NCBI RefSeq assembly: GCF_020923495.1
Contig: NZ_CP064048.1
Coordinates: forward strand, 459,501-523,500
Source: Brevibacillus sedimenti
Lineage (GTDB): Bacteria > Bacillota > Bacilli > Brevibacillales > Brevibacillaceae
DNA length: 64,000 nt
Direction of reading: 5' to 3'
Numbering within the stretch: position 1 is the first letter of the stretch; each line of letters begins with the position of its first letter. Positions 2,488 through 64,000 of this stretch are shown in pieces. The notes beneath the pieces were generated by a model. The model had not been told where the DNA came from. It saw only the letters and a list, made by a program, of their open reading frames with translations, and did not search any database. Both the position numbers and the translations under genes were made by a program.

Positions 2488-3945
2488 TCACCGACAGGGG
2501 GACAAACGTACCGGTGCCGCCTTTTTGATCGCCCCCGCCAACCTGCGTATCCCCTCCTCCAACGCCTCACTGCTCTCCCACGAATACGTCAAACGCATCC
2601 AGCCGGGCTCCGCTCCAAACACCTCGCCAGGCGTCATCAACACGCCGGCCTGGATCGCCGCCTCCAGCAGGTCCAGTCCGTCAATGGGCGTGTTCAGTCG
2701 GCACCAGATGTGGCAGCTGCCCGCCGGCACGTTCCACGATGCCTCCTGCCTCAGGTGCGTATCCAGTGCGGCCAGCATCCGGTCCCGCTGGGCGGTGAGA
2801 AACGGACGCAGCCGCTCCATCTGCCGCTCCCACAGCCCGCCTTCCAGAGCCAGCCGGGCCAACTGCTGCGATACCGAGCTGGTGCCGTAGTCCATCTGCT
2901 GTTTGGCGTCAGCCAGCCGTTCGATGACTGCACGCGGCCCGACCAGCCAGCCGATCCTTAGTCCGGACGCGATCGTCTTGGACAAACTGCCGACGTACAG
3001 GACGGAATCGCCGCTGTCCAGCGCCTTCAGCGGCAGCGGCGGACGCTTGTCCTCGTCCAGAGCGAGCGCTCCGTACGCGTCGTCCTCCACCACCGGAATC
3101 CGCAGTTCGCGGCAGACGGTCAACAGCTGCCGGCGACGCGCTTCACTCAGCACGGTGCCGGTGGGATTGTGAAAAGTGGGGTTGAGAAACACCATGCGAA
3201 TCCGGTGTTTTTTGTACAGCGTCCACATCTCGTCGGGAATCACCCCATCCGAGTCCATCGGAAGCTGGTAGAGGCGAAGGCCCGCCGACGCGAACAAGGG
3301 CAGCGAATAAGTGTATGAGGGTCCCTCCATGGCGATGGCATCGCCCGGGGCCAGCAGGCAGAGCGAAATGAGATGGAGCGCCTGTTGAGCGCCCGAGGTA
3401 ATCAGGATCTCTTCGGAAGAGACAGCAATCCCGTAATGGGTCCGCAGGTGAGCAGACACGGCTTCGCGCAGCTGCGGCTCCCCTTTGGGATGGACGTACC
3501 CCAAATCGATAGCCTCCATCTTCCCCCCGGTCAAACGCTCAAACTCCAGTGTCGGGATCATTTCCGTCGCCAGTTCTGCCTTGGCCAGATTGATGATCGC
3601 CGGATTCCACCCGGCTTCGCGGATTCGCCTGACGAGCGGCAGTGCCGGCAAAAACGCCCCGCCGGTGGTGTACTGGTGCCAGTTGGGCACTTTTTGTACG
3701 CCCCACAGGTGCCGGCTGACCCACGTCCCGCTTCCCTGCAGGGACTGGATCAACCCGGCGGCGCGCAGCTCCTCGTAAGCTGCCGAAACCGTCCCCCGAT
3801 TGACGCCGTACTGGCGGGCCAGCGTCCGCTCTGGCGGCAGCGGAGCCCCCGGCGGCAGCGCCCCGCTGACGATCTCACGTTCCAGATGCGCTGCAATCTG
3901 CTTGTAGACCGGCATTTCCGCATGCTTGTCCGGCTTCCAATCCAT
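2488..3945 (-). CDS. MocR-type regulator: GntR winged helix fused to a class I aminotransferase domain
   Basis: MocR regulators sense a ligand through a PLP-binding aminotransferase-like domain. The 485-residue product has a GntR winged helix in about residues 10-75 (PVYKQIAAHLEREI; ERTLARQYGVNRGT). A linker and a fold-type I aminotransferase domain (about 115-470) follow. The PLP lysine is expected in GSLSKTIASGLRIGW. The ATG at 3945 is chosen because GGGAGG lies just upstream; the open frame extends further 5' into the promoter region. It is divergent from an EamA transporter, and the shared intergenic region carries an ATTGG direct repeat. The second MocR at 62.1-63.5 kb has the same arrangement. 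The likely role is to control the transporter and itself. Confidence 0.92.
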   Translation of the reverse strand: MDWKPDKHAEMPVYKQIAAHLEREIVSGALPPGAPLPPERTLARQYGVNRGTVSAAYEELRAAGLIQSLQGSGTWVSRHLWGVQKVPNWHQYTTGGAFLPALPLVRRIREAGWNPAIINLAKAELATEMIPTLEFERLTGGKMEAIDLGYVHPKGEPQLREAVSAHLRTHYGIAVSSEEILITSGAQQALHLISLCLLAPGDAIAMEGPSYTYSLPLFASAGLRLYQLPMDSDGVIPDEMWTLYKKHRIRMVFLNPTFHNPTGTVLSEARRRQLLTVCRELRIPVVEDDAYGALALDEDKRPPLPLKALDSGDSVLYVGSLSKTIASGLRIGWLVGPRAVIERLADAKQQMDYGTSSVSQQLARLALEGGLWERQMERLRPFLTAQRDRMLAALDTHLRQEASWNVPAGSCHIWCRLNTPIDGLDLLEAAIQAGVLMTPGEVFGAEPGWMRLTYSWESSEALEEGIRRLAGAIKKAAPVRLSPCR

Positions 3946-3998: not shown

Positions 3999-4059
3999 AT
4001 TGGCCTATCAACCCTGCGACCAATTGGCTCAAGACTTTTCACGCAGCCTCCCCTACCAT
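3999..4059 (+). promoter_or_regulatory. MocR operator (two ATTGG boxes, 24-bp period) and promoter of the EamA gene
   Basis: ATTGG occurs at 3999-4003 and 4023-4027, exactly 24 bp apart. The second box lies within CCAATTGGCT. Starting 24 bases after TTGGCT is TACCAT (4054-4059), a plausible -10 box, with a weak -35 candidate AAGACT 17 bp upstream of it. The same arrangement, base for base in spacing, occurs at 63579-63639 in front of the LysE-type gene. Direct-repeat operators beside weak -35 boxes are known for MocR activators such as GabR and PdxR. The operator role here is an inference. Confidence 0.75.
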
Positions 4060-4099: not shown

Positions 4100-5038
4100 A
4101 TGAAAATTCAAGTCCGAAGCCGGATTCGTCAACCTTCGTCACGGGAAACCTCAGTTCAACGGCAGGAACGTGTGGGCCTGGCCTGGGGACTGCTCGGCGT
4201 CTTCAGCTTCAGCCTGACGCTTCCGGCCACCAAGGCAGCCTTGGCCTCCCTCTCTCCGCTCACCGTCGGGCTGGGGCGGGCGCTGGTTGCCGCTGTGCTG
4301 GCCGGAGTGGTGCTGCTGCTAAAGCGGGAGCGGGTACCAACCTGGCAGGAAACCAGGCAGCTTTTGATCGTCGCCGCGGGAGTGGTCGGCGGCTTTCCAT
4401 TTTTATCCGCCTGGGCGATGGAACGTGTACCGGCCACCCACGGCGCAATCGTACTGGCGCTGCTTCCGCTGGCGACTGCGGGAATGGCTGCGTTTTTCGC
4501 CGGGGAGCGTCCTTCTCGGCGGTATTGGCTCTCCAGCGCGGCGGCCTGTCTGACGATCCTGGCGTACGCAGCCGGCACCGGACTGGGCGGACTGCAGCTG
4601 GCCGATCTGGCGCTGCTCGGTGCCGTGCTGGCCGCTGCCGTTGGCTACGCCGTGGGCGGACAGCTGGCGCGCACGATGGGCAGCTGGCAGGTGATCAGTT
4701 GGGCACTGGTCTTTTCCTTGCCACTCCTCGTCGTCACCATGACCGGCCCGCTCATCTCCGAACTCCGTAACGCCTCATGGAGTGCGTGGCTGGGTTTTGG
4801 CTATGTCAGCGTGGTCAGCCAGTATCTCGGTTTCTTCGCCTGGTATCACGGCCTGGCTGTTGGGGGCGTGGCTCGTGTCGGCCAGACGCAGTACCTCCAG
4901 CCGTTTTTCACGATTGCCGCTTCTGCCCTGCTGTTAGGCGAATCCATCACGCTGGGGGCTATCGCCGCTGCCGTCATCGTCGTAGCCGCCGTAGCCCAGG
5001 GACGCCGTGCCGCTGTCATGCGCATCGAGCGGTCGTGA
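4100..5038 (+). CDS. EamA/DMT-family transporter
   Basis: This 312-residue protein has about ten hydrophobic helices in two EamA repeats, the usual layout of drug/metabolite transporters. These exporters or permeases sit in the cytoplasmic membrane; the substrate cannot be read from sequence. The first helix begins near residue 27 (LAWGLLGVFSFSLTLPATKA). An AAAGGATG ribosome binding site precedes the ATG. The gene is divergent from the MocR regulator at 2488-3945, which by analogy with similar pairs is expected to activate it, perhaps in response to an amino compound or vitamin B6-related ligand. Confidence 0.88.
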   Translation: MKIQVRSRIRQPSSRETSVQRQERVGLAWGLLGVFSFSLTLPATKAALASLSPLTVGLGRALVAAVLAGVVLLLKRERVPTWQETRQLLIVAAGVVGGFPFLSAWAMERVPATHGAIVLALLPLATAGMAAFFAGERPSRRYWLSSAAACLTILAYAAGTGLGGLQLADLALLGAVLAAAVGYAVGGQLARTMGSWQVISWALVFSLPLLVVTMTGPLISELRNASWSAWLGFGYVSVVSQYLGFFAWYHGLAVGGVARVGQTQYLQPFFTIAASALLLGESITLGAIAAAVIVVAAVAQGRRAAVMRIERS

Positions 5039-62083: not shown

Positions 62084-63535
62084 TCACATCATCTCTCTGA
62101 TCAATCGGGACAGGCGGTGAAGCGCCCGCTCCATCTGCTGCTCATCGGCGTATGCGTACGAGAGGCGCAGGTGGCAGTCGTCCGTGCCGTCATAGATGTA
62201 GCCCGGATTCAGCAGAATGCCCTCGGCCAGCGCCCGCGAAAAGAGAGTCCGCATCGACACCGCCCGGCGCAGCCGCAGCCAGATGTAAAAGCCGCCCTGC
62301 GGATATCGCCATTCCGCCAGATCGGCAAACCAGCGCCTGAGCGACTCGCACGCGCACGCCCTGCGCGCTCGAAGAGCCTCCCTCACCGTTTGCAGATGGC
62401 GTTGGTACAGGCCGCTGCTCAGCCATTCCGCCGCCACCAGCTGGGACAGAGCGCTGGCTCCGTAATCGGTCTGCATTTTCACGTCGGCCAGCCGTTCGAC
62501 AACCGGTTCCGGCCCGACAACCCAGCCAATCCGCAGCCCGGGGCTGAGCGATTTGGACAGGCTGCCCACGTACAGGACCAGCCCGTTGGGGTCGAGCGCC
62601 TTCAGCGGAGGCGGCCCCGGCTCGTCCAGCCACAGTTCGCCGTAGACGTCATCCTCCAGGATGGGCAGCCGCTCCCGTTCGCAGCCGGCCAGCACCTGCT
62701 GCCGCCGTCTCTCCGACATCAGGATGCCGGTCGGATTGTGAAAGGACGGTATGGTGTAGAGCAGAGCGGCCTGGTGAGCCTGTTTCAGCCGTGCCAGCGC
62801 ATCCGGACGAATCCCTTCCTCGTCCAGCGGAACGCCCGTCAGCCGCATGCGCGACGACTGAAACACCGGCAGCGAGTACAGATAGGAAGGGCGCTCCAGC
62901 AATATGGCCGAGCCTTGGCGCAAAATACCCAGCGAGATAAGCTGCAGCGCCTGCAGTGCACCGGACACGACGAGAATGGACGACGGCGGAGCGTCGATGC
63001 CGCGCGTCCGCAGGTGGGCGCTGATCGCCTGCCGCAGTGACTTCAGCCCTTTGGGTTCCGTATAGCCGAGCTGGGCAATCTGTCCGCCCAATCGTCCCAT
63101 AATCTCCGCCATGCCGGCAGACGGCAGCAGGTCGGGCGACAGTTCCCCCGTGCCCAGCCGAATGATCTGCGGATCGTATTCATGCCGGTTGATGGCCTGG
63201 ATGGTCGGCTGATTGGGCGGATGTTCGCCCGCCTGGACGTAGCTCAGCCAATCGGGAGGCGGGGCGGACGCCAGCAGCGACCAGGTGTTGTTGCTGACCA
63301 CGGTGCCGCTGCCCACGACCGCTTCGATCAGCCCTTCCGCCTTCAGTTCGTCCAGCGCCGTCACCACCGTGCTCCGGTTGACGCCAAACGCCTCGGCCAG
63401 GGCCCGCTGCGTCGGCAGTCTGCTTTTGACCGGCCAGTCGCCGGTGGCGATTTTTTCCCGGATGTAGGCAACAATCTGGGCGTAGATCGGCACATCCGAC
63501 GCCCTGTCCGGCTTCCAGTCAATCGTCGGCACCAT
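62084..63535 (-). CDS. MocR-type regulator (second copy of the arrangement)
   Basis: The 483-residue product has a GntR winged helix (about 8-75: PIYAQIVAYIREKIATGDWP; TQRALAEAFGVNRSTVVTAL) and an aminotransferase domain with the PLP lysine in YVGSLSKSLSPGLRIGW. ATG 63535 follows GGAGGAGGG; the frame extends 5' without support. It is clearly paralogous to the regulator at 2488-3945, sharing DWKPD near the start, and is divergent from a LysE-type exporter. The shared promoter region carries the same 24-bp-spaced ATTGG boxes. Confidence 0.93.
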   Translation of the reverse strand: MVPTIDWKPDRASDVPIYAQIVAYIREKIATGDWPVKSRLPTQRALAEAFGVNRSTVVTALDELKAEGLIEAVVGSGTVVSNNTWSLLASAPPPDWLSYVQAGEHPPNQPTIQAINRHEYDPQIIRLGTGELSPDLLPSAGMAEIMGRLGGQIAQLGYTEPKGLKSLRQAISAHLRTRGIDAPPSSILVVSGALQALQLISLGILRQGSAILLERPSYLYSLPVFQSSRMRLTGVPLDEEGIRPDALARLKQAHQAALLYTIPSFHNPTGILMSERRRQQVLAGCERERLPILEDDVYGELWLDEPGPPPLKALDPNGLVLYVGSLSKSLSPGLRIGWVVGPEPVVERLADVKMQTDYGASALSQLVAAEWLSSGLYQRHLQTVREALRARRACACESLRRWFADLAEWRYPQGGFYIWLRLRRAVSMRTLFSRALAEGILLNPGYIYDGTDDCHLRLSYAYADEQQMERALHRLSRLIREMM

Positions 63536-63578
63536 CGTGATCCCTCCTCCGGTCTTCATGCTTCCCCTATTGTAGCCA

Positions 63579-63639
63579 ATTGGTCGGGTCGCTGCCAAAC
63601 CAATTGGCTGGAGACAGACGGCCCGATTTGTCTTACTGT
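63579..63639 (+). promoter_or_regulatory. MocR operator (two ATTGG boxes, 24-bp period) and promoter of the LysE-type gene
   Basis: ATTGG is at 63579-63583 and 63603-63607; both sit in CCAATTGG. Starting 24 bases after TTGGCT is TACTGT (63634-63639), the -10 candidate, with GAGACA 17 bp upstream of it. All spacings equal those at 3999-4059, although the sequence between the boxes is unrelated. Confidence 0.78.
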
Positions 63640-63679: not shown

Positions 63680-64000
63680 ATGTGGGAAGCCGCGTTGCAC
63701 GGATTTGTGCTCGCATTCGGATTAATCCTGCCGCTCGGCGTGCAAAATGTCTTTGTCTTCAATCAGGGGGCGGCCCAGCCGACGCTGTGGCGGGCGCTGC
63801 CTGTCGTCCTGACCGCAGCCGTCTGCGACACGCTCCTGATCCTGCTGGCCGTGCTGGGCGTGTCGCTGGCGGTGCTCACCTTTGCCTGGCTGAAAACCAT
63901 CCTCTATGCCGGGGGCGTCTGCTTTCTCATCTACATGGGCATCCTCACCTGGCGAAGCCGCCCCTCTGCCGAGACGCAGGAGGCGGAGCAGTTCCCGCCG
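63680..64000 (+). CDS. LysE/ArgO-family amino acid exporter, 5' part (cut by window end)
   Basis: ATG 63680 follows AAAAGGAGG. The visible 107 residues contain the family start GFVLAFGLILPLGVQNVFVF (the GPxxxxV-like N-terminal motif), a second helix (VVLTAAVCDTLLILLAVLGV) and a third (LKTILYAGGVCFLIYMGIL). LysE-type permeases export basic or other amino acids. The gene runs off the window without a stop. It is expected to be activated by the divergent MocR. Confidence 0.88.
   Translation, partial: MWEAALHGFVLAFGLILPLGVQNVFVFNQGAAQPTLWRALPVVLTAAVCDTLLILLAVLGVSLAVLTFAWLKTILYAGGVCFLIYMGILTWRSRPSAETQEAEQFPP

Follow-up and report, generated by a model that had tools for sequence, protein, structure and literature searches.

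Analysis of the window, by which we mean the whole 64-kb stretch of DNA, revealed ATTGG boxes 24 bp apart at both of its MocR/exporter intergenic regions, site A (3999-4059) and site B (63579-63639). Both regions are probably operator-promoters of MocR/exporter divergons, at which the MocR protein would activate the exporter gene and repress its own; we put the probability of this reading at about 0.78. It rests on the boxes, their spacing, the -35/-10 register, the conservation of the layout and its gene pairing, all of which were observed directly.

Layout of the two sites

The features of both regions are as follows.

2491..3945, minus strand: MocR regulator A (Pfam GntR 3e-19, Aminotran_1_2 1.1e-40; recognition helix NRGT by alignment)
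3999..4003, plus strand: operator A box 1, ATTGG (AATTGG from 3998)
4020..4029, plus strand: operator A box 2, CCAATTGGCT (ATTGG 4023-4027; CCAATTGG 4020-4027; TTGGCT 4024-4029)
4031..4036, plus strand: degenerate -35 position AAGACT of site A, 17 bp before the -10 (position inferred from the 68-site consensus and the sequence)
4054..4059, plus strand: -10 element TACCAT of the EamA gene, fitting the 29-nt register of the other sites
4100..5038, plus strand: EamA-family transporter, probable exporter (Pfam EamA 2.3e-31)
62087..63535, minus strand: MocR regulator B (Pfam GntR 4.1e-19, Aminotran_1_2 2.3e-38; recognition helix NRST by alignment)
63569..63574, minus strand: putative -10 TACAAT of MocR B itself, adjoining box 1 at offset 9 (from the sequence)
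63576..63583, plus strand: operator B box 1, CCAATTGG (ATTGG 63579-63583)
63596..63602, minus strand: imperfect inverted box CAAACCA of site B (position from the consensus CCAwCCA)
63600..63609, plus strand: operator B box 2, CCAATTGGCT (ATTGG 63603-63607; CCAATTGG 63600-63607; TTGGCT 63604-63609)
63611..63616, plus strand: degenerate -35 GAGACA of site B, 17 bp before the -10, equal to the consensus at the same offset
63634..63639, plus strand: -10 element TACTGT of the LysE gene (from sequence and register)
63680..64000, plus strand, running off the window: LysE-family translocator (Pfam LysE 2.6e-14 on the in-window part; 207 aa in full)

Regulators A and B both have the MocR domain order, an N-terminal GntR winged helix followed by a class I aminotransferase-like domain (Pfam). 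The residues K328, D238, D295 and D296 are invariant in 10 aligned MocR proteins, so the candidate PLP-binding Lys and Asp are kept; K328 and the Asp positions would correspond to Lys312 and Asp279 of GabR, as described in the available text of PMC6677901.

This layout agrees with the initial annotation, which had placed paired ATTGG boxes at a 24-bp spacing, the second within CCAATTGG, between a MocR regulator and a divergent transporter (MocR/EamA at A and MocR/LysE at B according to Pfam). The TACYRT -10 element that it had proposed to start 24 bases after TTGGCT is found at exactly that distance at both sites, as TACCAT at A and TACTGT at B. TTGGCT itself was rejected as a -35, because its distance of 24 nt from the -10 is excessive; the -35 position lies further downstream.

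Chance tests and occurrence in the own genome

In 2000 mononucleotide shuffles, the two intergenic regions never came to share a repeated 6-mer with the same spacing (10-60) in each (0/2000), and a shared 5-mer of this kind arose in 3/2000. In the whole 3.93-Mb genome, exact AATTGG-N18-AATTGG has four matches: site A, site B twice (the palindromic boxes match on both strands) and one further place, which sits within stop-free frames of at least 120 codons. The same holds for all six of the places checked (this exact one and five with one mismatch), although this is a weak test.

The pattern ATTGG-N16-CCAATTGG is confined to the two operators in the own genome. Across 39 family genomes it has 70 matches, 52 at A/B sites and 18 elsewhere by our own count, and a reversed control pattern has 3. 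Five of the matches elsewhere were read: two lie before EamA genes, one upstream of a TauE-family gene, one in an aldehyde dehydrogenase frame and one in a sigma-54 activator frame (Pfam). Six of the 18, including the one in the sigma-54 frame, share a near-identical string. At the TauE-family gene the match is a B-like double box around position 1616 of locus L302, for which no -10 was seen where one usually stands.

The upstream regions of two own paralogs (G000:C1:269128 and 3483479) hold no TGG pair at 24 bp. A third MocR of the own genome (G000:C1:14149; L034 1200-1530, equal to G000:C1:13849-14178) is followed by an AzlC gene (Pfam) and has the boxes TGGCT/TTGGCTC 22 bp apart. Its -10 again lies 24 nt after TTGGCT, yet the box flank is a different one. 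Six relatives of this locus show the same boxes at 22 bp (five) or 23 bp (one), and a TATnnT hexamer was found at +29 from the second TGG in 7/7 of these loci, the own one included.

Conservation among orthologs and paralogs of the family

Among the 39 family genomes, exact ATTGG-N19-ATTGG is present upstream of 23/23 A orthologs at an identity of 53% or more; 20 of these belong to the genus and 3 to two other genera. TGG boxes 24 bp apart were found in 30/30 best B matches (at least 61% identity), and 27 of the 30 have the strict ATTGG form. Orthologous regions in related genomes, the check that the initial annotation had named, thus keep both boxes at 24 bp. Strict ATTGG was too narrow as a search pattern: it missed 3/30 B loci and paralogs with GTGG, TTGG or ATGG boxes.

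The DNA between the boxes had been described as not conserved. This is correct between A and B, but inside each orthologous group the spacer is partly kept, as ATTGGCyTAC...CCTGCTGCCAATTGGCTCTA in the A group and as ACAAATTGGTTGG...AAACCAATTGGCTGGAGACA in the B group; free intervening DNA is therefore true only between groups.

In the paralogs of the family, TGGNTG pairs at 24 bp occur in 18/21 loci of group B2, 4/11 of group C and 1/8 of group D, with at most 5 at any other spacing; such a pair is absent from 7/11 C and 7/8 D paralogs. Seven A paralogs (46-48% identity) without the strict repeat comprise three with TGGATGG pairs at 24 bp, one with a TGGATC pair and three with none. The B2 paralogs (e.g., L111, L116 and L121), 54-59% identical to B, have GTGGTTGG boxes; several lie near frames that look EamA-like by eye, and a further TGGTTGG box often stands ahead of the start codon of the target. 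A search for A at order level gave 39 genomes, identical to the family set, and a wider one in 299 phylum genomes (E up to 1e-110) matched one genome besides the own, at 42%.

The 24-bp spacing in MocR loci outside Brevibacillus

The external set consisted of 76 loci, namely the 80 best-scoring of 581 relatives minus 4 from Brevibacillus, and it leans towards B. In 42/76 of these loci from the best 80 of 581, TGGNTG pairs are spaced 24 bp; no other spacing between 8 and 79 was seen in more than 4. Counting exact 7-mer repeats in the same best-scoring loci gave 26/76 for 24 bp (median 1, next highest 9). After thinning of these 76 loci, drawn from the best 80 of 581 relatives, to 32 genus labels, four of which are MAG or family names only, 19 remained at 24 bp, 4 at 23 and 4 at 25; in the row set used for genus labels and recognition helix, L182 and B_G017 are the same locus. 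A count of 51/76 from the pair-picking score is not clean, because this score favours 24 bp, whereas the spacing-peak count (42/76) is clean.

TTGG pairs from the best 80 of 581 relatives peak at 24 bp (36/76) and also at 20 bp (29/76); in our reading the 20-bp peak comes from TTGGTTGG boxes paired out of register. Of the external loci in this set, 15/76, many of them Clostridium, lacked an acceptable pair at 23-25 bp, and some related MocR loci space the same boxes by 23 or 25 bp, or by 22 bp.

Conservation in orthologs and the 24-bp peak in external loci together bear out the proposal that the spacing itself is under selection. The common MocR recognition code proposed for the two loci stands as far as the shared architecture goes, but it is not particular to them, being common to many Bacillota MocR loci. 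A private link between the two loci was rejected, because the layout is general among MocR loci. What the two sites share is a MocR operator of general type: a genuine regulatory element that belongs to a known kind and is not special to the A/B pair.

A fixed promoter register

The promoter register was determined at 71 sites, the regions with an acceptable pair among 102 (including the best 80 of 581 relatives). The 4 Brevibacillus rows were kept in the -10 register and consensus analyses; of the 29 class loci (L262-L290), 22 were used for the -10 register, two of them from the own family, and 16 for the target classes. Counted downstream from the T of the second TGG, the best -10 sits at 29 nt in 47/71 sites and at 28 nt in 10 (ties counted); the highest control value was 2.85.

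Aligned, 68 distinct sites give the consensus WTTGGTTGG...CCAwCCA-ATTGGNTGG-AGACA, 17 bp, TAnaaT. Its box letters are partly chosen, because the pair score rewards box likeness and TG; the -35, the -10 and the inverted box lie outside that score. Box 2 runs into the -35 position, 17 bp before the -10, where the consensus is the degenerate GAGACA, and GACA was found in 38/68 distinct sites. An inverted CCANCCA ahead of box 2, likewise in 38/68, is imperfect at site B of the window and was not seen in the A sites of the genus.

On the MocR strand, the distance between box 1 and a -10 is 8 or 9 nt at 39/71 sites and in 27/30 B loci (offset 8 in 24/30, offset 9 in 3/30). No fixed place for the MocR-side -10 was found in A, where at most 2 of the 18 sites scored agree.

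Proposed mechanism and alternative explanations

According to our model, a MocR dimer would read the two direct-repeat TGG boxes 24 bp apart, and MocR bound at box 2 would contact RNA polymerase and thereby switch the exporter gene on. MocR would sit at an activator position, since box 2 leads into a degenerate -35 (GAGACA or worse) with a distance of 17 bp to the -10. At site B the complex on box 1 would repress the MocR gene, as box 1 adjoins the -10 of that gene on the other strand. An amino compound is the presumed effector, acting through PLP. By analogy, the fixed -10 register, the degenerate -35 and the MocR -10 beside box 1 would fit exporter activation and self-repression as for GabR and PdxR, for which MocR divergons with target activation and autorepression are described in the main text of PMC5320631.

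Alternatively, MocR could repress the exporter gene, with binding to box 2 covering the -35 and the effector relieving the block. Box 2 does abut the -35, and EnuR, a MocR repressor, has operators overlapping the promoter core according to the available text of PMC8739950. However, a degenerate consensus -35 (GAGACA) is as at activator-dependent promoters, the register between box 2 and the -10 is fixed, and MocR genes often stand in divergent orientation to targets under positive control (PMC5320631, main text). We therefore consider repression of the exporter rather unlikely.

A linked exporter network, in which regulators A and B would each bind the operator of the other as well, is more doubtful still. 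The two sites have ATTGG boxes, spacing and -10 distance in common, but the flanks are specific to each group. For the score matrices, relatives supplied 13 sites of A and 18 of B; the sites of the window genome and its nearest relative and the outgroup A sites were left out. While the mean scores with the own matrix were 71.1 (A) and 68.4 (B), computed on the training sites, the mean full-site cross-scores were -16.3 for A sites with matrix B and -8.8 for B sites with matrix A. Site B of the window scored 41.9 with matrix B and -19.0 with matrix A. Site A scored 47.4 with matrix A and 8.2 with matrix B in full; on box positions it reached 18.0 with matrix B, and a weak overlap is therefore possible. 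The outgroup A orthologs (G031-G033) also speak for cross-recognition: their proteins carry NRST, box 1 has the B-like TTGGCTGG (in G031 box 2 as well), and the sites of G031 and G033 score 28.0 and 10.9 with matrix B. Regulators A and B of the window themselves differ in the recognition helix (NRGT versus NRST). The cross-talk considered possible in the initial annotation thus found no support, given the group-specific box flanks, the poor cross-scores and the recognition-helix residue that is changed in the A clade of the genus.

A role of the boxes as sites of some other, global regulator or as promoter elements, with MocR as a mere neighbour, is very improbable: TGG-rich motifs are short and MocR binding here is predicted, but the motif tracks MocR genes across genera, the box variants follow MocR orthologous groups, and the own-genome matches to ATTGG-N16-CCAATTGG lie at the two operators only.

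In this reading A and B, each of which now has its own box flanks, share an ancestral code, and each most likely serves its own exporter only.

Recognition helix and box flanks

The A proteins of the genus have NRGT in 20/20 cases, and their sites have TG in box 2 in 0/20 and in box 1 in 1/20. Of 97 rows that combine NRST with a box pair, 87 have TG in box 2; the NRST rows include five B proteins, in all five of which NRST was read. One tentative explanation, judged from sequence comparison, is that in the Brevibacillus A clade a Ser-to-Gly change (NRST to NRGT) went along with rewriting of the 3' halves of the boxes (TGGNTG to TGGCYT/TGGCTC), which would insulate the EamA regulator from the LysE regulator with the 24-bp spacing and the promoter register kept. 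As a single clade amounts to one evolutionary event, the link between Ser/Gly and the boxes is a hypothesis only. If true, it would be a natural re-specification of an operator on a fixed scaffold, with the boxes about a quarter turn out of phase.

Exporter targets and separated loci

When neighbours were classified by a crude longest-frame rule, the 24-bp pair was present in 53/56 LysE, 3/3 EamA and 13/37 other or unclassified loci, and some of the 'other' rows (L182, L237) resemble LysE.

No EamA match lies within 1.5 kb at the MocR A locus of the outgroup genomes G032 and G033. Their EamA genes (55% and 60% identical to that of the window; Pfam EamA) lie elsewhere, with no MocR A match in the 3.1-kb stretches around them; the 24-bp operator is present at both the MocR A gene and the separate EamA gene in both genomes. 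In G031 the EamA gene remains within the MocR A locus. The pattern in G032 and G033 is apparently what would be expected if MocR A acted through the operator on EamA in trans and on its own gene in cis. The A-type operators of these separate EamA genes lie at L300 (around 1530) and L301 (around 1567).

Relation to known MocR systems

MocR operators are known to consist of two direct boxes, or of direct boxes with an inverted one between, with a TGT/TGG core in most and often in divergons (Suvorova and Rodionov 2016; PMC5320631, main text). The present sites resemble them in direct-repeat boxes, TGG core and divergon setting, and are a further instance of this known type. The box distances in the main text of PMC5320631 are one or several helical turns; whole turns were not found here, where the 24-bp mode amounts to about 2.3 turns (10.5 bp/turn), although the measure may differ. 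Neither the 24-bp rule nor the -10/-35 register was found in the main text of PMC5320631 or in other open-licence PMC literature as far as its text was available.

In the GabR system of B. subtilis (gabTD/gabR), direct-inverted-direct repeats lie over both divergent promoters (available text of PMC9452892), an arrangement that some of the sites here may share, and GabR is an activator and autorepressor (available text of PMC6522883), as proposed here. The GabR operator is 41 bp with 6-nt repeats, which would put the starts of the direct repeats about 35 bp apart, provided that these repeats mark its ends, compared to 24 bp here; the GabR target is GABA catabolism, whereas here it is an exporter. 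Neither pdxST nor another PLP-metabolism target of the PdxR type is found at sites A and B, whose divergent neighbours are EamA and LysE genes (Pfam). PdxQ regulons include DMT or LysE/YggA transporters (PMC5320631, main text).

YisV of Bacillus subtilis is a possible ortholog of regulator B. The B. subtilis-group loci L235, L251 and L257 (51-54% identity) carry the same operator, with a LysE-type neighbour in L251 and L257; the LysE-family neighbour of yisV in Bacillus subtilis is presumably yisU. In the available text of the 2019 survey PMC6522883, YisV is listed with function unknown and six of the seven Bacillus subtilis MocR proteins are described as still uncharacterised. YisV, YcxD, YhdI and YdfD are not named in the main text of PMC5320631.

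For a large set of MocR proteins, our analysis gives a precise predicted operator (TTGGNTGG, 24 bp, TGGNTGGAGACA, 17 bp, -10), which would tie many of them to LysE- and EamA-family exporters. The Ser or Gly residue in NRxT offers in addition a residue-to-base hypothesis for DNA recognition by MocR proteins.
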